From a virus, in IMG/VR virus record IMGVR_UViG_3300020084_000055, positions 1 through 32,443 of that record: a stretch of DNA of 32,443 nt. One strand, 5' to 3'. How positions within the stretch are numbered: position 1 is the stretch's first letter; every line of letters starts with the position of its first letter. Positions 5,744 to 26,832 of this stretch are shown one piece after another. A program made the translations under genes and the position numbers. Below the pieces are notes generated by a model that saw only the letters and a list, made by a program, of their open reading frames with translations, was not told the DNA's origin and made no database searches.

Positions 5744-6322
5744 TCAGGAGTCTTTTCTCATTCCCAAAAATTCTCTTCCATCATAAAGATTATCTTTATA
5801 TGGACCTTCCGCATTTACATAATGTAGAAATGATTGCAAATACCATTTCTGAGTAAATGCTTCTCTCCAATGATAAAGATCACAACCTCTGTAAAGGCAG
5901 AGATCGCCTGGTTCTAAGATAATTTCTACCGCATTTGATTTATCTTCTTTCTCGCTGAAATAAATTGGACTGACTTTTTCTTCATCTGGAATACCGAGAG
6001 ACAAAGTAGCAGAAACTTCACATGAAGGTCTATCTCTATGAATATGCAACTCATCACCAATAGAATATAATCTTGTATAGGTGTATGTTGGTAGAAGATT
6101 GAGTCCAGAAATTTCTGATAAAGATTCACATGACAAATCTAAAACAGAATCCATCAATGGATCACCATAAAAAGATTTGCTCAGTGGTGCTTGTGTATCT
6201 TCTTTTTCGTATTGTCCACCTTTGATTCTTACGAAGAAGTAATGCTGAATAAAGTTTACAAAATCAGAATCAAGGAAATTTTTAACTACGAAATAACCTT
6301 TATCTAAAAAACTATTTTCCAT
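5744..6322 (-). CDS. 2-oxoglutarate/Fe(II)-dependent oxygenase (prolyl-hydroxylase-like)
   Basis: The 192-residue protein has the double-stranded beta-helix oxygenase pattern: an HxD iron motif in HIHRDRPS (His95, Asp97), the segment EPGDLCLYRGCDLYHW carrying the distal His151, and nearby basic residues (Arg153, Lys159) that could bind 2-oxoglutarate. Family members use Fe(II), O2 and 2-oxoglutarate to hydroxylate substrates, often proline residues. There is no signal peptide, so it would act in the cytoplasm during virion assembly. It overlaps the upstream oxygenase gene by 11 bp and precedes the S74 fiber. The substrate is not shown by sequence; a structural protein of this operon is the natural candidate. 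Confidence 0.75.
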   Translation of the reverse strand: MENSFLDKGYFVVKNFLDSDFVNFIQHYFFVRIKGGQYEKEDTQAPLSKSFYGDPLMDSVLDLSCESLSEISGLNLLPTYTYTRLYSIGDELHIHRDRPSCEVSATLSLGIPDEEKVSPIYFSEKEDKSNAVEIILEPGDLCLYRGCDLYHWREAFTQKWYLQSFLHYVNAEGPYKDNLYDGREFLGMRKDS

Positions 6323-6968
6323 GAACCCATGCCACTAATGAATATCTTTCTCCTTTTGTTACGGGAGTAACCTCATGTAAAGTATATGAAGGGAAGAAAA
6401 CTGCTAATCCTTTTTCCTTGTTGAGGAGAACTGGATCTTGTTGATAGTGAAGAATTAGATCTCCTCCTTCATATGATGCAGGATCGGATAATTGAATTGA
6501 TATTGATAACTTTCGATTGTGAGGAATATTCCAAAGTAAAGGGTCAGTATGCTTAGCATAGAAACCAGATTCTTCCGATTTATAGAGAGTGAATTGAAGT
6601 CTTTCTATTTTTTCCAATTCAAATTCAAAAAACTGATCGTTTATTTCATTAATAGCATCAGTAAGAATTTGATAGATCCAACTTGTTTGACTGCTTACGG
6701 GAATCCATGAAGTAAAACTTCTTCTCACATCTAAACAATCAGGACCTCTACTTCCAACTGTGGCACGTTCTTGATTTAGAAGTTTTCCTATTGCTTTTAT
6801 TTTTTCTATTTGATAATCTGAGAATATGTTTTGTTTCCAGGCAAAATTATTATTGGGTTTTCCTTTAAGATACCAATATTCTGGTGATGGTCCATTCAAA
6901 TCAGATAAATTTATTGTTGAATCTAGTTCTTCTAATGAACTTTTATTTTTTAAATACTTTGAAATCAT
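6312..6968 (-). CDS. 2OG-Fe(II) oxygenase, prolyl-4-hydroxylase type
   Basis: I start at the ATG at 6968, which overlaps the upstream stop as ATGA; a TTG at 6989 is less likely. The 218-residue protein has all family landmarks: FYAKHTDPL with His140 and Asp142, YEGGDLILHY, the distal His198 in PSYTLHEV, and Arg208 ten residues later in KGERYSLVAW for the 2OG carboxylate. This H-x-D...H...R layout is that of P4Hc-domain enzymes. The first 110 residues form a helical extension. It lies between an assembly-factor-like gene and a second oxygenase gene, in the same transcript as the Asn-Pro-Gly-rich adhesin. Confidence 0.85.
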   Translation of the reverse strand: MISKYLKNKSSLEELDSTINLSDLNGPSPEYWYLKGKPNNNFAWKQNIFSDYQIEKIKAIGKLLNQERATVGSRGPDCLDVRRSFTSWIPVSSQTSWIYQILTDAINEINDQFFEFELEKIERLQFTLYKSEESGFYAKHTDPLLWNIPHNRKLSISIQLSDPASYEGGDLILHYQQDPVLLNKEKGLAVFFPSYTLHEVTPVTKGERYSLVAWVHGK

Positions 6969-7531
6969 AGTAATATTGTACTCGGCCAACTTGCAGATAA
7001 TTTAATAGAAATCAAATCATCGATATTTGTAATAGTATCTATTATTGAATATAATCTTGCTTCTTCATTATAGCACTCTTGCGTATAATTATCCAAAAGA
7101 CTTAATAAAGTATTAACTTCTTCAACTGAAAGTAATTGGTGGGAATTGATAAACTTCCAATAAAAACTCTTATTAGACAACAACTTTTTAACTATTAAGT
7201 TAATTTTGGTTTTCTCGTCGGCAATGATATAATTGCCTTTGTAATTTAATATTTCACTTTGAGACTCAACTTTTTTATTTGAAATAGATTCTTTTAGGTT
7301 ATTTTTATTGATCTCTAACCACTCTGGACTGTATTTTAATTTGGATATTTTGGTTGATGATATCTTAATCCAACCTAATCCAGGATGCCCTGCCCAAGTT
7401 AGATCTTCTAATTTTTGATCACTATAATTTGGAAGCCCTGAAATATTACTCCAATTTTCTGGAAGTGGTTTTATATGATCAATAATTTGATTTAAGTTAT
7501 AGTCAACTAAAACATAATAATCATTCTTCAT
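6965..7531 (-). CDS. DUF4376-like protein, possible fiber assembly factor (188 aa)
   Basis: The N-terminus holds short repeats of aromatic/acidic sequence and the motif LTWAGHPGLGWIKI. The C-terminal part (about 95-185) follows the DUF4376 pattern as I know it: a YIIADEKTK strand, a Trp/Asn segment, an Leu-rich helix with VEEVNTLLSLLDNY, then a helix ending in IDTITNIDDL. DUF4376 proteins often sit beside phage tail-fiber genes and are regarded as fiber-associated or assembly proteins. It is Asn/Lys/Ile-rich, more AT-rich than its neighbours. It overlaps the genes on both sides. The family call is tentative. Confidence 0.55.
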   Translation of the reverse strand: MKNDYYVLVDYNLNQIIDHIKPLPENWSNISGLPNYSDQKLEDLTWAGHPGLGWIKISSTKISKLKYSPEWLEINKNNLKESISNKKVESQSEILNYKGNYIIADEKTKINLIVKKLLSNKSFYWKFINSHQLLSVEEVNTLLSLLDNYTQECYNEEARLYSIIDTITNIDDLISIKLSASWPSTILL

Positions 7532-7973
7532 TTACTTCCGCTTCTTCTAGTTTTTCAACTTTTTTTCTGGTTCTTCTTTTCTTTGGTTCTTTTAGTAATT
7601 TTAACTCTTCTTCTCTGTGTGCCAATTGATATGGAGCAGCTCCTTTCCATTCAAGTTTATTAACAGAAATATTTCTATCAATAACTTCTTCCCATCCTCT
7701 CCATGCTGCAAAATTTTGTTTTGGTCTCATAGCAATTTCTACGCCACAACCTGCTGCAATCTGTTCCATTAACTCAATTGCTTCAACAGGTTGCATCTGA
7801 GCCCATACTGTCGCAGCATCAGACCTTAGGACCAGTTCTACAACTCCTCCAAATGCAGTTCCAACAGTGACTGATCTGGCTCGATTTGGATTTTGTTGAA
7901 TGCTTAGATATTCTTGTTTTTCGTAAAATTCATTAATCTTTTTTCTCGTTTGAGATTCTTTTTGATTTTTCAT
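7521..7973 (-). CDS. Conserved-type hypothetical protein with charged ends (150 aa)
   Basis: A globular core of about 80 residues (roughly 33-110; includes RSVTVGTAFGGVVELVLRSD and PVEAIELMEQIAAGCG) is flanked by a charged N-terminal helix and a Lys/Arg then Glu-rich tail (KEPKKRRTRKKVEKLEEAE). I recognise the core as a type seen in cyanophage structural operons but not a named family. The start ATG at 7973 has a late promoter 23 bp upstream (7996-8003). It directly follows the glycine-rich adhesin gene and overlaps the next gene by 11 bp, so it may help assemble or attach that adhesin; this rests on position only. Confidence 0.65.
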   Translation of the reverse strand: MKNQKESQTRKKINEFYEKQEYLSIQQNPNRARSVTVGTAFGGVVELVLRSDAATVWAQMQPVEAIELMEQIAAGCGVEIAMRPKQNFAAWRGWEEVIDRNISVNKLEWKGAAPYQLAHREEELKLLKEPKKRRTRKKVEKLEEAEVNEE

Positions 7974-7995
7974 TTCAAATTAAGAATATTTTTAA

Positions 7996-8003
7996 TATTT
8001 ATT
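7996..8003 (-). promoter_or_regulatory. T4-type late promoter motif (AATAAATA)
   Basis: The minus strand reads AATAAATA, 23 bp before the ATG at 7973. It overlaps the TAA stop of the glycine-rich gene (8002-8004). Confidence 0.55.
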
Positions 8004-9228
8004 ACTGAGTGGTCCAGGTAATAGTTACAAATCCACCAGAAGCAACTGTTATTGGATATGTAGATGATGCAGTAACTTTAACTGGGAATGATGTTGATGG
8101 ATTTGCATTTAATCCAGGTGATCCTGGATTTGAAGAACCAGCAGATCCGTTAAATCCTGGATTTCCTACACCTGCACCTGATCCTGGATTTCCAGATGCT
8201 CCTGTACTTCCGGATGATCCAAATCCACCAGTTCCAGCTCCTCCTCCTCCACCTCCACCTCCACCTCCTCTATCACCATAAGTTCCTGGCCACCCTCCGT
8301 CACCACCATTGCCGCCCCAAAGGGCTGTATTTGGTATATTTAATGGGTTAAATCCAAAATTTCCACCTAAAGATATATTAGATGGCGGTGTCGTTCCGCC
8401 AGCATTTGCGGTCGTACCTCCTGGATTTCCTGCATTTCCGCCTGGACCTCCAGCTCCAGCAGTTCCTGGGCCTTGGCCTGGAACGCTATTAGTTCCACCA
8501 CCACCACCGGCACCGCCTCCACCACCATTTCCACCAACACCAGGATTTCCTGTTCCTCCTGTTCCTCCTGCGTTTCCTGCGTTTCCACCTGTTCCTGCAC
8601 TTCCAGGAGTTCCAGAGTTTCCATTTCCTCCTGTACCACCAGCTCCGCCAGGAAAAACAACACCCAAAGCAGATGAACTCGCACCTATATTTCCGCTTGC
8701 TCCAACACTTCCAGATCCTCCTGCATTAAAAGTGCCAGGATTTCCTGGATTTCCTGGATTTCCTGCATTTCCTGCAGTTCCTGCATTTCCAGTTCCTGCA
8801 TTTCCAGTAAAACCAGCAAATCCTGCATTTGATGGTGTTGGTACAGTGCCGCCATTTCCACCTACACCAAAATTGAATGGTATTTGTGTTGCACCATTAT
8901 TTCCTGGATTTCCTGGTCGATTTGGTTTTCCCGATCGCTGCATCGCTCCACCTCCACCTCCACCTCCTCCACCACCGGGGTTTCCTGAGTTTCCTGTTCC
9001 ACCGTTACCACCTAAACCACCTGATCCATTAATTCCTGGATTTCCTGGGTTTCCTGTTCCTGCATTTCCCGCAATGCCAGGAGCTCCCGGATTGCCTGCA
9101 CCACCTCGTCCTGTTACTGTAACTGAATGAATTCTTGCAGGAGCAGTCCAATTTCCAGGAGCATTAAAAGTTATTGTGCCTCCTGGAAACATTCTTCCCT
9201 GTCTGATATTTTCGTGAATGAAAGGCAT
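8002..9228 (-). CDS. Glycine-rich (Asn-Pro-Gly) adhesin / collagen-like tail protein
   Basis: This 408-residue protein opens with GTITFNAPGNWTAPARIHSV, the start typical of glycine-rich phage adhesin-type domains. About 320 residues of Gly, Asn, Ala, Pro, Ser and Thr follow, with runs of up to ten glycines and many GNPG, GNAG and GGTG units. I count 24 Pro-Gly pairs, most as Asn-Pro-Gly. Short Gly-X-Y triplet runs occur but are often broken, so a polyglycine-II sandwich (as in the phage S16 gp38 adhesin) is as plausible as a collagen triple helix. A beta-strand C-terminus ends the chain. Three oxygenase genes lie within 3 kb. A role in host receptor binding is inferred. Confidence 0.8.
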   Translation of the reverse strand: MPFIHENIRQGRMFPGGTITFNAPGNWTAPARIHSVTVTGRGGAGNPGAPGIAGNAGTGNPGNPGINGSGGLGGNGGTGNSGNPGGGGGGGGGGAMQRSGKPNRPGNPGNNGATQIPFNFGVGGNGGTVPTPSNAGFAGFTGNAGTGNAGTAGNAGNPGNPGNPGTFNAGGSGSVGASGNIGASSSALGVVFPGGAGGTGGNGNSGTPGSAGTGGNAGNAGGTGGTGNPGVGGNGGGGGAGGGGGTNSVPGQGPGTAGAGGPGGNAGNPGGTTANAGGTTPPSNISLGGNFGFNPLNIPNTALWGGNGGDGGWPGTYGDRGGGGGGGGGGAGTGGFGSSGSTGASGNPGSGAGVGNPGFNGSAGSSNPGSPGLNANPSTSFPVKVTASSTYPITVASGGFVTITWTTQ

Positions 9229-9237
9229 AACTTTATT

Positions 9238-9840
9238 TTAACCTAAGTGGAACCATCCTGTTATTATATATTTTGCTTCATCACCAAAAACCACATTTCC
9301 TCGGTGAGTGTGAGTATATGATGCTGGGAAAATTACCATCGTATTTTTCTTAGGAGGAATTCTCTTTTTCTGATATAAGAATTCGGTTTCTCCCGCACAA
9401 TCTGGTTCAAGAGTATTCAGATACGCAATGAATGTCATAATCCTAGTAGAAACTTGAGAACTACATTGCTCATAGTGCCAAATATGATATCCTCCGCCCG
9501 GTGAAGTTTTTTGCATCTTAACTTCTGAGCAAAATATATTTGAATCAGTCAGAACATCATATTCACTCACATAATGATCAAAGCAAGTTTGAAGACCATC
9601 AAAAAATACTTTAACATTGGTTTTGTCAGTGCTCTGAAAACGATCATTTAAGTGTGGTTTTAAATTTAAAAAATAAAACTCATCATTTTTTCTAAACTTT
9701 TTTTCGTTCTCAAAATCTTGCCTATTTGAACAATGACCACAAACAACTTTATTTTCAAATTGTTCGATCATATGTTCACAGTAATCTTCGGGAAACACTT
9801 CATCGTACATGCCGATGAAATCAATATACTTAGAATTCAT
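9238..9840 (-). CDS. 2OG-Fe(II) oxygenase with HxE iron motif
   Basis: The 200-residue protein resembles prolyl-4-hydroxylase-like phage enzymes: GGGYHIWHYEQC with His122 and Glu124, the segment AGETEFLYQ, distal histidines 177 and 179 in SYTHTHRG, and Lys190 as the likely 2OG-binding base. Glu replaces the usual Asp of HxD, which may alter activity. The N-terminal part has several cysteines (CGHCSN near residues 34-39). The gene sits 9 bp before the Asn-Pro-Gly-rich adhesin and overlaps the preceding fiber gene as ATGA. This intimate linkage suggests it acts on one of these two proteins. The fold call is good, the substrate is inference. Confidence 0.75.
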   Translation of the reverse strand: MNSKYIDFIGMYDEVFPEDYCEHMIEQFENKVVCGHCSNRQDFENEKKFRKNDEFYFLNLKPHLNDRFQSTDKTNVKVFFDGLQTCFDHYVSEYDVLTDSNIFCSEVKMQKTSPGGGYHIWHYEQCSSQVSTRIMTFIAYLNTLEPDCAGETEFLYQKKRIPPKKNTMVIFPASYTHTHRGNVVFGDEAKYIITGWFHLG

Positions 9841-11998: not shown

Positions 11999-12006
11999 TA
12001 TTTATG
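11999..12006 (-). promoter_or_regulatory. T4-type late promoter motif (CATAAATA)
   Basis: The minus strand reads CATAAATA about 15 bp before the ATG at 11984. It contains the TAA stop codon of the subtilisin gene (12002-12004). Confidence 0.5.
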
Positions 12007-14047
12007 ATTGTGTAAAAGATATACCAGAAATATTGACACCACTTATAGAAGGTAGAGTATTGTTTGCATAAGGATTGTGTAAAACTCTTTTTGGAGCACC
12101 CCTCAAGTTGCCATTACCACGTATATTGTAAACTTCACTTGAATTTGCTGGACTATCATAAGTTGAATTATAAGTTTGTGTCCAATATCCTGTATCATTC
12201 ACTCCAGGATATGGATCTGATAATGCAATTTCTCTACCTCCGTGTCTAGATAACCATTCTTTAACATCTCTTTGAGTTGCTTTTCTATTTATCTGTAAAT
12301 GTAAACCAATCAAAGCACAAGCATTAGGACAAGCAGAACTTGTTCCATTAAACCAAGTATCGTAAAAACTTGTATTATCTTGTCGCTGATAATCTTCATA
12401 ACTACCAGCATAACCAGCAGCCATTGTCATCTCTGCGGGTGCCCATACATCTATCATTGGACCATTAGCAGAATAACACACTTTACGAATAGCATATGCT
12501 GTGGCACCTTGTTTTGCACTTGGAGGTTCTACACCACAATCCAAAGCGCCAACCCGAATACTTCCACTTGAAGGAGTATCAGTTCCAGAATGACCTTTCT
12601 GAACTCCCTGAACTCTGCAAATATATGTTCCGTCCAGTGCATAATAGTTATTATAATCTATATCAGTGCTGTCAGAAAGTTTTTGATTACTATTACTAGC
12701 AGCGGTCACAATAATACATCCAGCGGCAATTGCGTTTTCTGCACCCAAATTTGAGGTAGAACTTGGATATAGATATTGTCCATTTGTTGTAGTGTATGCA
12801 TAGTAATTTGTTCCCCCACTTTGATATATAATTCTTGTATTATTTCTACAAGCACCAGCATTTGCAGGGATGGTTGCGGAATCCCCTGAACCAGTATAAG
12901 TTAAATTAGAACCTCTGTAGGTGTGTGAGTATGTAGTGCTACTTGTATTTCCTGTGCTATAAAAAGTTCCATATGAATTGTTCACCAAAGTTGGATCTGG
13001 ATTACCAGGTTGCATTATTTTTTTGGCCTTATGAAATATGGTACATATATCAAGTGCCGTTCCAGAACTAATATACCCATCACCAAAACTAATCCTTATA
13101 GCCCAGAGATTACATTCAAATGCTAATCCAAAAGACTTTCCACCAATCTGAGATGCACAGGCAGTGCCATGGCCATCAGTCATTTGGTTGCTATTCGAGT
13201 TAGATGTTTTAGATAATGCATGACCAATTGTATATAATGAATTGATGGAACTAATTGTCCCTAAAGATTGAAAAGACGCCGATCTTTTAGATGAATCTGT
13301 CCACCACTCACGAGCAGCAGTTGACGCAATCCCAACTCCAAAATTAACACCATCAATTATTTTTGTATAGGTTAGATTATTTGTTGTAAAATACGTTGGA
13401 TCAACTTTATATGGACCATCAAGAATTAAATCTTTGACTCTACGGGTTCCATCATCTGCAATGAACTCGGGATGAACAGCACCAATACCATCATCAACAA
13501 TTATAGCATCAACACCTCTACCTGTTAGTGAATATGGAACATCAGTATTCTCAAGTGTTGTGGTTGTAATACCAGTGCCTTGATAGGGTAAACTTGATTG
13601 ATTTCCATTAACAAATGTGATATTCCAATTTGATCGTATTCCATTTGTGTGAGATGTTGTTTCAGTATCAAGTGCTGCCGTGAGTGCTGGTTTATTAAAT
13701 GCAACACTTTTTTTAAATCTATTTGTTAATTTTGATTCTGGTATTGGATATTTGTCTGGATTTAATATTACACTCTCTACCTTTGGATGAGTTCTCAAAA
13801 CCTCCGCTTCTTGACGACTCATTAGATAAACAGAACTTCTTAAAGAATATTCTCTAATATTAGAACAAGTAATACTTCTATTTGGTACACCATCAATCTC
13901 ATTTTCTTCAATAATGTAAGTATGAATTTCCTCCCAATCAGAAGAATCATTAACAATAACCATATACTCATCAATTGGTTCTGGAATATATTCAAAGATT
14001 GGAGTATCTTCTGTTAATCTTACTTCTATTACTTCAATAGGATCCAT
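12002..14047 (-). CDS. Subtilisin-like serine protease (S8 family) in the fiber operon
   Basis: The 681-residue protein carries the S8 catalytic residues in order: Asp185 in AIIVDDGIG, His293 in DGHGTACASQIGG, an oxyanion-type Asn452 in VTAASNSN, and Ser570 in FNGTSSACPNA. A segment near 80-103 (EAEVLRTHPKVESVILNPDK) looks like the end of an inhibitor-I9-type propeptide. There is no signal peptide. It lies 1 bp after one fiber gene and its stop overlaps the promoter of the next, so it is made with virion proteins. It could mature fibers, act from the virion on host surface proteins, or be a structural protein that kept the fold. Catalytic residues look intact; the target is unknown. Confidence 0.85.
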   Translation of the reverse strand: MDPIEVIEVRLTEDTPIFEYIPEPIDEYMVIVNDSSDWEEIHTYIIEENEIDGVPNRSITCSNIREYSLRSSVYLMSRQEAEVLRTHPKVESVILNPDKYPIPESKLTNRFKKSVAFNKPALTAALDTETTSHTNGIRSNWNITFVNGNQSSLPYQGTGITTTTLENTDVPYSLTGRGVDAIIVDDGIGAVHPEFIADDGTRRVKDLILDGPYKVDPTYFTTNNLTYTKIIDGVNFGVGIASTAAREWWTDSSKRSASFQSLGTISSINSLYTIGHALSKTSNSNSNQMTDGHGTACASQIGGKSFGLAFECNLWAIRISFGDGYISSGTALDICTIFHKAKKIMQPGNPDPTLVNNSYGTFYSTGNTSSTTYSHTYRGSNLTYTGSGDSATIPANAGACRNNTRIIYQSGGTNYYAYTTTNGQYLYPSSTSNLGAENAIAAGCIIVTAASNSNQKLSDSTDIDYNNYYALDGTYICRVQGVQKGHSGTDTPSSGSIRVGALDCGVEPPSAKQGATAYAIRKVCYSANGPMIDVWAPAEMTMAAGYAGSYEDYQRQDNTSFYDTWFNGTSSACPNACALIGLHLQINRKATQRDVKEWLSRHGGREIALSDPYPGVNDTGYWTQTYNSTYDSPANSSEVYNIRGNGNLRGAPKRVLHNPYANNTLPSISGVNISGISFTQS

Positions 14048-21916: not shown

Positions 21917-22546
21917 TTAAGTATCACCTCTATTATTATACCACTTTTCTTCTTTCCATGTCAAGCGTTTTTGTAACTCTTTATCAAAAACCAAGAGGTA
22001 TCTATGCTTTCTTGAACGTTCTTTCCATTCTCCTTCGAAACCTTTTACTTGCCCACGAGAGTGTTTAGTTCCGTCTGAATAATAGAAATCTTTTTTTCTA
22101 TCCGTGAGACCGTAATACTTAAAGTTGCAAGCGCGATAAATTGTACCAGAATGGTGATCTGAATCAGCATAAGAAAGGATTGCTTTAACTTCAGTATCTC
22201 TCCGAAATTGTCTAATCGTTTTTGACACAAACCAAGAAGTGATGTTATATTCGCATGACTGCGTACTAGGTTCGATACAAAGTCTTGAGAGTTCAAAGAG
22301 TCCTTGTTGTTCGTGTCTTTCAAGTTCAAATGCTCCTTTCGCAATTTCAGGTACAGGTAATCCAGTAAAAATGCAGACTCCTTGAAGTCCACCAATATTC
22401 AAAGGAGAGAACTCATTCTTCTTAAAGAGTCCATAGTTCCAACCTGATTTGAAACCCTTAGAAATATCTTTAAGATAATGATATTGAAGTAAAAGTTCTT
22501 CTGCTTGTTTTTTTGTTACTTTATCAATATAGAAGTCAGACTTCAT
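21917..22546 (-). CDS. Mom-like DNA-modification protein (GNAT-fold)
   Basis: The 209-residue protein matches the pattern I know from the phage Mu Mom family: FELSRLCIEPST (84-95), a helix with Arg/Lys, ILSYADSDHHSGTIYRACNF (123-142), KYYGLT (143-148), and a basic C-terminus with KHRYLLVFDK. Mu Mom turns adenine in phage DNA into N6-(methylcarbamoyl)adenine, which blocks many restriction enzymes, and its fold is related to GNAT acyltransferases. It would act in the cytoplasm on phage DNA. The start ATG overlaps the upstream stop as ATGA; a terminator follows, and a sigma-70-like promoter lies inside its 3' end. The family call is good; the exact base modification is not shown. Confidence 0.75.
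   Translation of the reverse strand: MKSDFYIDKVTKKQAEELLLQYHYLKDISKGFKSGWNYGLFKKNEFSPLNIGGLQGVCIFTGLPVPEIAKGAFELERHEQQGLFELSRLCIEPSTQSCEYNITSWFVSKTIRQFRRDTEVKAILSYADSDHHSGTIYRACNFKYYGLTDRKKDFYYSDGTKHSRGQVKGFEGEWKERSRKHRYLLVFDKELQKRLTWKEEKWYNNRGDT
21935..21964 (-). promoter_or_regulatory. Sigma-70-like promoter (TTGACA-18-TATAAT) inside a gene end
   Basis: On the minus strand TTGACA (21964-21959), an 18-bp spacer and TATAAT (21940-21935) match both hexamers fully. The expected transcript starts near 21928 and meets the terminator at 21876-21911 after only a few dozen bases, so its purpose is unclear. Confidence 0.6.
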
Positions 22547-23735: not shown

Positions 23736-23764
23736 ATCATAGCACCGCTTGGGCGCAGTGTCAA
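23736..23764 (-). promoter_or_regulatory. Sigma-70 promoter (TTGACA-17-TATGAT)
   Basis: On the minus strand TTGACA (23764-23759), a 17-bp spacer and TATGAT (23741-23736) match 11 of 12 consensus bases. It overlaps the stop of the oxygenase gene and drives the 60- and 59-residue genes. Confidence 0.8.
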
Positions 23765-24360
23765 TCTTCTTTGTACCAAAGTGATAAAACGTATCTTTCT
23801 CCATTTTCAACTTTTGAAACATGATGCAAATATAAGGAGTTTGAAAATATTATGAGTTTGCCTGGTTCTGGTTTAACTTCAAAATTTTCAAAACAGGTAT
23901 AACCACCTTCAAAATCATCGTTTAGATAAAGCATTGCTGCAAATACATCCTGTCCATGTACATCATTTTTATCAAAGTGAGGTTTCATGAAAGTTCCAGA
24001 AGGCCACCTTACAACACCAACATAATCTAAAATGATCTCTTTATCAAAGGATTTGCATATTTTTGTGATAGCATTTACAACTTCTGCATGTAAATCATCA
24101 TTATTAATTTCAATATTAGTTGGATCTACGTTTCCTCCCAAGTAAATCGCACCATAATTGCCATCTGGTTCTGGAACCATTGGTTCTTTGGGTAAGGATT
24201 CATTGGGATTTGAATGAGTTACTGTGGTAAGAAATGTGTCTCCACCTCTACTCTCGTCTCCGTATGGTATTTCTTCCCTGTTACTTTTTGCAAAATTGAT
24301 GAATGATTTACACAAAAAAGGATCTAAAAAATTTTCTTCAATGTAAATCAATTTTTTCAT
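23761..24360 (-). CDS. 2OG-Fe(II) oxygenase, prolyl-4-hydroxylase type
   Basis: The 199-residue protein shows KPHFDKND with His128 and Asp130, FEGGYTCFENF, EPGKLIIFSNSLYLHHV with the distal His179, and Arg189 ten residues later in GERYVLSLWY. This is the complete H-x-D...H...R set of the P4Hc family. The N-terminus LIYIEENFLDPFLCKSF is typical too. It is coupled as ATGA to the structural gene at 24357-25133 and is the last gene of the baseplate operon, so it is made late with virion proteins. Its substrate is unknown; a protein of the hub operon or the Asn-Pro-Gly-rich adhesin are candidates. Confidence 0.85.
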   Translation of the reverse strand: MKKLIYIEENFLDPFLCKSFINFAKSNREEIPYGDESRGGDTFLTTVTHSNPNESLPKEPMVPEPDGNYGAIYLGGNVDPTNIEINNDDLHAEVVNAITKICKSFDKEIILDYVGVVRWPSGTFMKPHFDKNDVHGQDVFAAMLYLNDDFEGGYTCFENFEVKPEPGKLIIFSNSLYLHHVSKVENGERYVLSLWYKED

Positions 24361-25133
24361 AGTGTTTTGGTATTCACTTTATTTGCATACTGAGGATCGT
24401 TGTAATCCTTGTCTGGATAATCACTCCATTCGTTGCCTTCATATTCAACGACCAGAGCATTCACATCCTTTCTTTCGGCATATACATGATAGAAACAGTC
24501 GATTGGCATACCGCCATTTGATTGAAGATAAATTTTTGAATCATCCCATCTCTTTACAATCACATTCTGATGGGATCCAATTGGTTGGAGTTGAACTGAG
24601 ATACTATCAGTATGCACTAAATCTTTCCAATACCAAGGAAGTTTAATTTCTGTTTTATTTTTTAGTCTACCTCTAAAATATACGCCAACCTCTGGTCCCT
24701 CAATACATGCGTAACGGAGACGATTTCCTTCACCCAAAGATGGATGAACCATATCAAAAGGTTTTGGTCTTGCATCTGCCTGGCTAAATCTATCTGCTAA
24801 TGCACCTTTATTTCCACAATCAACCTTACCATTAACAAGAACATCTCCATCGATAACAAGAACATTAATTCCAGATCTTTGGTCTCCCTCAATTTTTACA
24901 TCTCCTTTTACATAAAGAGATCTATCAGATGATGTATCACTATTTTCCATCTGACCGATCATTACAGTCGCTTTTACTTCGGAGAAACTACTATCCTTTC
25001 CAGCTAGAACAGGACTTTGTAGATAAGCTGATCCATTAATTTTCTTTTTCCCTCTACCAAAAAGATTTGGTTTTACCTCATCCTTCGCAACAAATAATTG
25101 ATTAATATATTCAGAGTCACTAAACGATGACAT
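24357..25133 (-). CDS. Virion structural protein with a C-terminal beta-domain (258 aa)
   Basis: The start has a good ribosome site (AAAGGAGAG). Residues 50-110 contain strand repeats (SLYVKGDVKIEG, NVLVIDGDVLVNGKVD) of a beta-helix type. Residues 140-235 form a domain with RYACIEGPEVGVYFRGRL, IELP-like KLPWYWKDLV, SISVQLQPIGSHQN and FYHVYAERKD, a layout I associate with phage tail/fiber proteins, without a firm family name. The tail is acidic and Tyr/Asp-rich. It sits at the end of the baseplate operon, coupled to an oxygenase gene. Probably an accessory tail or fiber-base component. Confidence 0.65.
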   Translation of the reverse strand: MSSFSDSEYINQLFVAKDEVKPNLFGRGKKKINGSAYLQSPVLAGKDSSFSEVKATVMIGQMENSDTSSDRSLYVKGDVKIEGDQRSGINVLVIDGDVLVNGKVDCGNKGALADRFSQADARPKPFDMVHPSLGEGNRLRYACIEGPEVGVYFRGRLKNKTEIKLPWYWKDLVHTDSISVQLQPIGSHQNVIVKRWDDSKIYLQSNGGMPIDCFYHVYAERKDVNALVVEYEGNEWSDYPDKDYNDPQYANKVNTKTL

Positions 25134-25147
25134 AATTATCTCTCCTT

Positions 25148-25744
25148 TTAATTTGAACCTGGTTTAGATGAACCCAATAATCTTGAATTAACTGGGATTA
25201 CTGGTGACTTTAATGTACTAGCAGAACTTAACTTTTGAAAAGATCCTGCGGTCATCTTCATAATATTTTTGGCAGTAGTATTTAGTTCTCCGTCAGAAAG
25301 TATGCTCATTGCCTCAGCGGCATTGATATTAATCTGCTTTGAATCTAATTTTATTTCTTCGTTGGATTGAAGAGTAATCCTACCAGTACTATTATCTGTT
25401 CCAGTTGCAATTAATTGAATTTCCTTTGCATTAACTTTGAAGACACCTTTTGTATGAATCTCAATATTTCCTAGATTCAAACCATTTTCACCAGCAGAAC
25501 TTATGAAAATTGCAACATCTCCTTCTGGAATGTTATCTCCACATTTAATCTGATATCGACCTCTACACCTAGAAGTGATCCATGCTTTTCTTTTTCCAGT
25601 TTGGTCAATGGTTACATATTCAAGACCACCTTGACCTTGCATCATAATCGAAGACTTTACTTGGTCTTCATGAATATGACCAAATCTTAGATTTCCATCT
25701 TTTGTTCTTACGTCTTTTGTTTCTAAATTTTCTGAACGTGCCAT
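25148..25744 (-). CDS. Beta-prism spike-like structural protein (198 aa)
   Basis: I start at the ATG at 25744 (MARSENLETKDVRTKDGNLR), which has a GAGGTAA ribosome site. A longer frame to 25801 would overlap the upstream gene. Residues 85-170 are repeats of short alternating strands (GNIEIHTKGVFKVNAKEIQL, then GRITLQSNEEIKLDSKQINI) that resemble the triangular beta-prism of gp5/VgrG-type spikes. The gp5-like protein of this operon lacks such a C-terminus, so this protein may supply the tail spike. This is inferred from repeat style and position only; a general structural protein is the alternative. Confidence 0.6.
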   Translation of the reverse strand: MARSENLETKDVRTKDGNLRFGHIHEDQVKSSIMMQGQGGLEYVTIDQTGKRKAWITSRCRGRYQIKCGDNIPEGDVAIFISSAGENGLNLGNIEIHTKGVFKVNAKEIQLIATGTDNSTGRITLQSNEEIKLDSKQININAAEAMSILSDGELNTTAKNIMKMTAGSFQKLSSASTLKSPVIPVNSRLLGSSKPGSN

Positions 25745-25749
25745 TTTAG

Positions 25750-26832
25750 TTACCTCGGTACAATATCGAAAATTTGTTTGGGTGGAATTTTTCCTACACA
25801 ATCAACAACTTCAACCACATTTGCACCCTCAGGAACAATAAATGGATCTTTTGGTCTTGGAGTTGCTTTGAAAATTGGTGTGAATGTTGCATTAAATCCT
25901 GTTGGGGAATCAGTTCTCATATCAGGAATATCATTAAAACCACATCCCACTCTCAGAACTTTTACTTCTGCAATTTGACCAAACTCATTTATTACAAGTT
26001 CAGTCTCAGTTCCATTGTTTGGTGTAATGATTAATCTATCTCCTTGCCTATATCCAAATCCTTGATCAAGAACTTCTATTTTTTCTAAACACAAATAAGT
26101 TGGATATGTTGTGGCTTTTGGTGGGTCTACTGGAACTAATGGTAAATTGATAACCTCATCTGTTTCAAGAACTCTTGGTGGACCATCGGGAGGATAATAG
26201 GTGCTACCTTTTTTAACTTGAATTGGTCTATAAGGTTGCACAACATAATAACGACCATCTTCTGTTTCAACATATCCTTCATCAGGTTCTTTCCAAACTC
26301 TTTCATTGCCACCTAAACTACCGTCAGGTGAAGCAATATATCCATCTCCTGGTGCAACAGGAACCATATCTTGAATTTGACCATTTTTAATATTAACTCT
26401 TACACTGGATCCTGCGCCCTTTCCGCATGGATCAATAAGTTCTGCATTTGGCGGAGACTTGTACCCCTTTCCACGATTGACAATATCAAATCCAATTACA
26501 GAAGATGAAATGGGACTAATGATTGCATTTGCAGCTGCTCCAAATCCACCACCACCAAAAAACTTAACCACGGGCGGTCCACATTTTACTGGTCCAGTAT
26601 TGCAATTTGATTTGGAAGGAAGTATATTTTTCTTATTTGGAAGTTTTTTAACCTCCTTAATAGTGAGTTCTTGTTCTGTACCATCACCTGTTTTAAAATA
26701 AAACAGAGTTTCATTATTACGTTCCCAAACTTTAACAGCTTGTTTAATACTCAACCCTTCTACTTTTTGACCATCCTTGTCAAAAAAAGATACTTTAATA
26801 GCAGAATCAAATGGTATACTAGTGGAAAGCAT
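25750..26832 (-). CDS. Baseplate/tail structural protein with glycine-rich turns (360 aa)
   Basis: The protein is Pro/Gly-rich and beta-like, with a repeated turn-strand pattern: FDIVNRGKGYKSPPNAELID, VAPGDGYIASPDG, VLDQGFGYRQGDRLIITPN and VGCGFNDIPDM. An SH3-like N-terminal part (VKVSFFDKDGQKVEGLSI) precedes a Lys-rich linker. No enzyme motif is present. It sits between the gp5-like gene and the spike-like gene, starting 10 bp after the former, and is probably made from the same late transcript. I know proteins with such 'GxGY' turns from cyanophage tails, without an assigned T4 counterpart. Confidence 0.65.
   Translation of the reverse strand: MLSTSIPFDSAIKVSFFDKDGQKVEGLSIKQAVKVWERNNETLFYFKTGDGTEQELTIKEVKKLPNKKNILPSKSNCNTGPVKCGPPVVKFFGGGGFGAAANAIISPISSSVIGFDIVNRGKGYKSPPNAELIDPCGKGAGSSVRVNIKNGQIQDMVPVAPGDGYIASPDGSLGGNERVWKEPDEGYVETEDGRYYVVQPYRPIQVKKGSTYYPPDGPPRVLETDEVINLPLVPVDPPKATTYPTYLCLEKIEVLDQGFGYRQGDRLIITPNNGTETELVINEFGQIAEVKVLRVGCGFNDIPDMRTDSPTGFNATFTPIFKATPRPKDPFIVPEGANVVEVVDCVGKIPPKQIFDIVPR

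Follow-up and report, generated by a model that had tools for sequence, protein, structure and literature searches.

The 32,443-nt fragment studied here, IMG/VR record IMGVR_UViG_3300020084_000055 (this whole stretch is called the window below), contains at positions 5744-9840 a group of phage genes in which three 2-oxoglutarate (2OG) oxygenase genes, oxy1, oxy2 and oxy3, accompany the gene of a glycine-rich protein. The best reading of this cassette, with a probability of about 0.6 as judged from the sequences, is phage-encoded prolyl hydroxylation of a tail-tip adhesin that resembles collagen or polyglycine II. The weight of this reading comes from a proline pattern in the glycine-rich protein combined with a strict linkage of its gene to the oxygenases; the pattern alone is no proof. 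A hydroxylation system built around an adhesin had been proposed in an initial annotation of the window, and its description of the genes was accurate. The three oxygenase genes and the glycine-rich open reading frame all lie where it placed them, on the minus strand, the glycine-rich protein has exactly 24 Pro-Gly pairs, 13 of which are Asn-Pro-Gly, and precisely 9 bp separate the oxy1 stop codon from the glycine-rich start codon (TAA-AATAAAGTT-ATG). The genes were also said to form one overlapping run, which holds in that they overlap or nearly touch from 10907 to 5744. Two genes absent from its gene list, u150 and u188, belong to the unit, and the order from 5' to 3' is fibre, oxy1, glycine-rich gene, u150, u188, oxy2 and oxy3 (Table 1).

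The cassette was surveyed in IMG/VR with oxy1 relatives and with u150 as an independent bait (labels such as L006, L162 and L330 denote individual contigs or loci compared with the window). When u150 was the bait, a glycine-rich gene was found directly upstream in 86/86 loci and oxy1 was present in all of the 74 loci with enough contig. The reverse test gave a glycine-rich gene within 1.3 kb for 80 of 83 oxy1 relatives with a profile score of at least 240. Among the oxy1 relatives, nearly all with more than about 45% identity have the glycine-rich gene beside them, and hardly any with less than about 40%. The glycine-rich gene is adjacent to oxy1 or to the cassette in all complete loci, and the linkage is kept in L086 without u150. 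Two gene orders occur across divergent phages, that of the window and oxy2-oxy1-(oxy3)-Gly-u150, and most cassettes carry three different oxygenases. Because the linkage is found in 74 of 74 loci and in two gene orders, the placement beside tail genes is hardly incidental. Co-occurrence of oxygenase and glycine-rich genes across related phages had been suggested as a check, and it was passed very strongly in these counts as well as in a search by peptide pattern described below. In a phylogenetic tree the glycine-linked oxy1 enzymes split from the ordinary cyanophage phrog_61 enzymes with a Shimodaira-Hasegawa-like approximate likelihood ratio test (SH-aLRT) value of 96, with one long-branched row misplaced; the ordinary enzymes are encoded beside tail fibres and not beside glycine-rich genes.

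Contigs of cassette phages (39-208 kb) have only one to four PF13640 genes each, and on the 208-kb contig both lie within the cassette, which rules out incidental clustering in phages rich in 2OG genes. At least some of the records are T4-like cyanophages because psbA is found in 5 of 20 long contigs (L004, L118 and L125 are examples) and a T4-type gp23 in 2 of 20. One cassette is located in a contig of a metagenome-assembled genome binned as Verrucomicrobiales (L162); this host label is weak because the contig looks like a phage contig. Two proteins encoded downstream of the cassette in L162 (7089-9614) might likewise modify tail proteins: one is sulfotransferase-like (weak match), the other a flavin-dependent tryptophan halogenase (PF04820, E 4e-102). 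Two tandem cassettes are found in one phage (L002 / L081). In the first, the gene ahead of that for the glycine-rich protein (69% identical to that of the window) is gp10-like and not oxy1. In cultured phages, tblastn with u150, the glycine-rich protein and the N-terminus of the latter gave no match, and hence no isolate with the cassette, though low-complexity filtering may hide some.

The oxy1 protein belongs to the 2OG-Fe(II) oxygenase superfamily by its double-stranded beta-helix fold, HxD/E...H iron site and basic 2OG anchor, and its PF13640 score is 49.5 bits at a Pfam cut-off of 27. His122-x-Glu124...His179 and Lys190 are invariant in 62 homologues, and Lys190 occupies the place of the 2OG anchor. 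The AlphaFold2 (AF2) model has a predicted local distance difference test (pLDDT) score of 93.8, and its top matches among solved structures are almost exclusively prolyl hydroxylases. These include the PBCV-1 collagen prolyl hydroxylase (Foldseek E 5.6e-12), the prolyl 4-hydroxylase (P4H) of P. putida (Z 21.0, root-mean-square deviation 2.5 over 177), PHD2 (Z about 20) and an algal P4H bound to (Ser-Pro)5 (Z 19.3). A profile of the 62 homologues matched only the P4Hs of Bacillus anthracis and PBCV-1 among solved sequences. As modelled, oxy1 has a prolyl-hydroxylase-like fold and metal site.

The second enzyme, oxy2, is also a member of the superfamily (PF13640 53.1 bits, cut-off 27). Its residues H140, D142, H198 and R208 are invariant in 29 homologues, and its profile matches the PKHD hydroxylase 3dkq (E 3e-21), PBCV-1 P4H (3e-8) and B. 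anthracis P4H (5e-8). The reading frame has an alternative longer start, TTG at 6989. The triad of oxy3 is conserved (H 24/26, D 23/26, H 24/26); for the window protein no Pfam model scored above cut-off and no clear relative was found among solved structures, so that oxy3 is recognisable only by its conserved HxD...H and through phage families labelled 'ferrochelatase'. The annotated number of three oxygenases was right, but only oxy1 and oxy2 look like prolyl hydroxylases. The families phrog_2954 and phrog_3531 match 2OG-oxygenase-like proteins, and their name 'ferrochelatase' seems to be a mistake that is spreading through annotations. A fourth 2OG-Fe(II) oxygenase, missing from the initial gene list, is encoded at 23761-24360 on the minus strand (phrog_2297/phrog_61), beside two conserved proteins at 24357-25801; its PHROG name 'DNA endonuclease' looks wrong.

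The 13 Asn-Pro-Gly sites of the glycine-rich protein compare with 1.5 expected from shuffles in which the glycine positions are fixed, and 0 of 2000 shuffles reach 13. By the same procedure, 48 homologues have 540 such sites against 81.7 expected (standard deviation 8.5), so the abundance of Asn-Pro-Gly is not due to chance. In the Gly-X-Y-Gly steps of the family, X is mostly Asn and Y is mostly Pro or Ala. Proline is found 1395 times at Y and 85 times at X across 99 cassette glycine-rich proteins, and in the window protein at 16 Y sites and at no X site. The conservation of these sites is moderate: at positions homologous to the steps of the window protein, Pro at Y is kept in 44% and Ala at Y in 29%. 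Collagen P4H hydroxylates proline at Y of Gly-X-Y. B. anthracis P4H prefers this position, and in bacterial collagens that lack hydroxyproline X is taken by Pro and Y by Thr (PMC8968730). Other collagen-like fibres of the cassette phages have Pro at X, or Gln or Thr instead (134 at X and 11 at Y in L006, almost no Pro in L084 and L142). Very long collagen-like fibres with GTQ, GIQ and GLQ repeats, almost free of proline, are encoded in cassette phages at 11422-14502 in L084, 639-5315 in L142 and 7938-10139 in L082.

Conserved beta segments are found at both ends of the glycine-rich protein and around residues 170-205, with a middle part of variable length. Two poly-Gly tracts, at residues 85-94 and 321-330, are followed by variable stretches. 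The long uninterrupted Gly-X-Y of collagen is lacking because the poly-Gly tracts interrupt it; the longest run is 18 triplets when Gly-containing triplets are allowed and 7 when counted strictly. The Pfam Collagen model matches 5 of 21 homologues and not the window protein. Profile matches of the family alignment to animal collagens (E down to 1e-29) have a strong composition bias and were used only as a sign of Gly-X-Y periodicity.

The viral collection was also searched for DNA encoding (Gly-Asn-Pro)3-Gly, with (Gly-Asn-Ala)3-Gly and (Gly-Pro-Thr)3-Gly as controls, and non-redundant glycine-rich reading frames with at least 4 kb of flank were counted. Of 69 phage proteins with Pro at Y, 63 have a 2OG oxygenase within 5 kb and 67 have one anywhere on the contig; a PF13640 gene at another place on the contig accounts for four of the six exceptions. 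Among collagen-like proteins with Pro at X, the corresponding figures are 3/22, none of them oxy1, and 5/22, and a PF13759 search of these control contigs added no further record. Homologues of gp38, considered as a larger control, were found in five loci only, too few for statistics.

This search revealed a third arrangement with a fibre, an Asn-Pro-Gly protein and only an oxy2-type enzyme, often with a DUF6065-like protein. In L193, L212, L243, L244, L331 and L181 a PKHD-type oxygenase follows the Asn-Pro-Gly protein, mostly with the DUF6065-like protein and without oxy1, u150 or oxy3, and in several loci a protein of about 105 amino acids precedes. L330 (4534-6418) encodes a Gly-Asn-Ala-rich (GNA)n protein without Asn-Pro-Gly, then two proteins resembling DUF6065 and a truncated oxygenase of PF13759. 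This locus had been considered a clean negative and was dropped as evidence because of the truncated gene; it suggests that the linkage between glycine-rich tail proteins and 2OG oxygenases extends even further.

By analogy, one would expect a collagen-type hydroxylation system to take this form, a protein with Pro at Y whose gene is linked to those of prolyl-hydroxylase-like enzymes. The tip protein, rich in Gly-X-Y, would be hydroxylated by the 2OG-Fe(II) oxygenases either ahead of fibre assembly or while it proceeds. The most likely chemistry is that oxy1 would 4-hydroxylate Pro at Y of Gly-X-Pro-Gly, mostly Asn-Pro-Gly; that the glycine-rich protein is the substrate and a tail-tip adhesin, that proline is the residue and C4 the modified carbon, and what the effect would be, is what we infer from pattern and linkage. 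The PKHD/PiuC-type oxy2 might also modify the glycine-rich protein, at different residues or with an activity redundant to that of oxy1. The hydroxyls would favour a polyproline-II conformation and provide exposed hydrogen-bonding groups, and this could rigidify the bundle or tune the receptor-binding surface. In such a system u188 would serve as a chaperone in fibre assembly, and u150 would probably be dedicated to the glycine-rich protein as its chaperone or cap.

Collagen-type hydroxylation itself is known, and the phage tail-fibre setting would be new; no link between phage tail proteins and proline hydroxylation was found in the literature among open-licence papers. The collagen-type P4Hs (PBCV-1 vCPH, 5c5t; B. 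anthracis P4H, 3itq and 5hv0) have the same fold as oxy1 and are its sole solved profile relatives. Those systems likewise have Pro at Y of Gly-X-Y beside the enzyme and Lys at the 2OG-binding place. They differ in that oxy1 has Glu for Asp in HxD, is located in a tail-fibre operon and usually has one or two further oxygenases alongside, and in that the phage protein, unlike collagen P4H substrates, is rich in Asn-Pro-Gly and has interrupted Gly-X-Y runs. The tip adhesin gp38 of T2, S16 and PP01 (polyglycine-II sandwich, 6F45) is similarly a glycine-rich product encoded downstream of a tail-fibre gene, with variable stretches between poly-Gly tracts and a variable middle flanked by conserved ends (PMC12892980). 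The cassette protein has other conserved strands at its N- and C-terminus and far more Pro-Gly, homology to the solved gp38 chains was not detected, and the annotated tail-fibre regions of S16 and T2 contain no oxygenase gene. Collagen-like proteins of bacteria and phages in which Pro is at X (GPT/GPQ) share the Gly-X-Y repeats in tail or surface fibres and are rarely accompanied by 2OG oxygenases.

Several observations weigh against prolyl hydroxylation by oxy1. The iron motif of oxy1 is HxE in all 62 homologues and HxD in characterised P4Hs, and oxy1 is therefore filed as P4H-like and not as P4H. In 14 loci an oxy2-type enzyme alone accompanies a protein of equal Asn-Pro-Gly density, so the prolyl hydroxylase may be another enzyme than oxy1, and its assignment to oxy1 is not secure. 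Polyglycine-II proteins with no such enzyme nearby can also have Pro before Gly (S16 gp38 has three Pro at Y and none at X), so part of the Y bias in the cassette proteins may be structural. Asn at X marks the family no less than Pro at Y does, with 984 G-X-Y-G sites in 48 proteins. The repeat region of the AF2 model of the glycine-rich protein has mostly pLDDT 30-45, that is, low confidence, and Foldseek with this model gave no match among solved structures. The Fisher p value for Pro at Y versus Pro at X (6e-12) is nominal and overstated because the proteins are related and not independent. The initially proposed system is partly supported: co-occurrence, the P4H-like fold of oxy1 and Pro at the collagen P4H position speak for it, and the substrate role of the glycine-rich protein, proline and not asparagine as the modified residue, a polyglycine-II fold and receptor binding are its presumptive parts.

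Foremost among the alternatives, though unlikely, is that the oxygenases act on another tail-fibre component, such as the upstream or a chaperone-bound fibre, with the glycine-rich gene as a fellow member of the module and Pro at Y serving polyglycine-II packing, as the bias in S16 gp38 might indicate. Cyanophages S-PM2 and S-RSM4 have oxygenases of the oxy1 family (phrog_61; S-PM2p225, SRSM4_210) between the short tail fibre and the tail assembly chaperone, followed by a second oxygenase as in a cassette neighbourhood, without the glycine-rich protein or u150 in between. These enzymes are on a separate branch with at most 43% identity to oxy1 of the cassettes; for phrog_61 a structural likeness to human EGLN3 has been noted and no substrate given (PMC12774648). 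The linkage, moreover, tracks the Pro-at-Y protein through at least three arrangements, including the oxy2-only loci with a different backbone and L086, and is rare at collagen-like fibres with Pro at X.

Second, and also improbable, is modification of the glycine-rich protein on asparagine (beta-hydroxylation, compare FIH/AspH) or on several residue types, with Pro-Gly merely structural. This would suit the dominance of Asn at X and the three different oxygenases of most cassettes, of which oxy2 and oxy3 differ from P4H. The nearest folds of oxy1 are nevertheless prolyl hydroxylases, which the oxy2 profile also matches, and the link follows phage proteins with Pro at Y and not merely glycine-rich ones. 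An auxiliary role in metabolism or DNA repair during infection, drawing on 2OG and with an incidental position among tail genes, has been proposed for cyanophage 2OG oxygenases, several of which occur per genome (2OG/nitrogen-stress metabolism or DNA repair; PMC3037559), but is very improbable here because it leaves the few PF13640 genes per contig unexplained and the fold of oxy1 is that of protein prolyl hydroxylases.

The window contains tail and baseplate genes: a hub/lysozyme, a tail fibre of 1932 amino acids, a gp10-like connector and several fibres. The glycine-rich gene has the position of a gp38-type gene, within a tail-fibre module and downstream of a fibre gene, and fibre homologues are found upstream of oxy1 in most cassette loci. 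On the minus strand, oxy3 is followed by the gene of an S74 chaperone-tipped fibre. The u188 homologues match DUF4376 (E 8e-7) and Phage_tail_APC (E 6e-14), and from these matches its relatives are predicted to be tail-assembly chaperones. For a late phage promoter (TATAAATA) ahead of the cassette, matches in the window did not rise above chance level. A subtilisin-like (S8) protease of 681 amino acids, possibly a tail or fibre maturation protease, is encoded among the fibre genes (12002-14047, minus strand), with a homologue near the cassette in L087 and L018. Amid the tail genes at 21917-22546 (minus strand) there is a match to a Mom-like DNA modification protein (phrog_1384, E 6e-34).

Table 1. 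Genes of the cassette and the fibre gene that precedes it (aa, amino acids)
Product	Position	Strand	Basis
Tail-fibre protein, 356 aa	9837-10907	-	PHROG tail fiber matches E 1e-13; directly upstream of oxy1, 4-bp overlap
oxy1, 200 aa, 2OG-Fe(II) oxygenase, predicted prolyl-4-hydroxylase-like fold	9238-9840	-	PF13640 E 9e-13, invariant H/E/H/K, model
Gly-rich protein, 408 aa, 35% Gly, presumed tail-fibre-tip adhesin and hydroxylation substrate	8002-9228	-	Gly-X-Y pattern, linkage
u150, conserved 150-aa protein	7521-7973	-	Homologue alignment; always directly downstream of the Gly-rich gene
u188, tail-fibre-assembly-type protein	6965-7531	-	Weak PHROG tail fiber matches; homologues match DUF4376, Phage_tail_APC
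oxy2, 218 aa from ATG, PKHD/PiuC-like 2OG-Fe(II) oxygenase	6312-6968	-	PF13640 E 7e-14, complete HxD...H...R
oxy3, 192 aa, divergent 2OG-Fe(II) oxygenase-like	5744-6322	-	phrog_2954 E 5e-43, conserved HxD...H

The strict link to a collagen-like tail protein makes the role of the oxygenases cheaply testable by mass spectrometry of virions. There is an even chance that aquatic phages, at least some cyanophages among them, use prolyl hydroxylases of their own to form hydroxyproline in their tail-fibre tips, and that as a general rule a phage Gly-X-Y protein is co-encoded with such an enzyme when Pro is at Y and not when Pro is at X. If prolyl hydroxylation is the right reading, phages would have a collagen-style modification system, a role would be found for some of the numerous cyanophage 2OG oxygenases that are so far unexplained, and enzymatic protein hydroxylation would be added to the biology of phage virions. 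Attachment of these phages would then be tied to the oxygen, iron and 2OG of the host cell. The compact prolyl hydroxylases and a defined Asn-Pro-Gly substrate might also be useful for hydroxylated collagen-like materials. Many uncultured water phages with the cassette probably finish their own attachment protein chemically.

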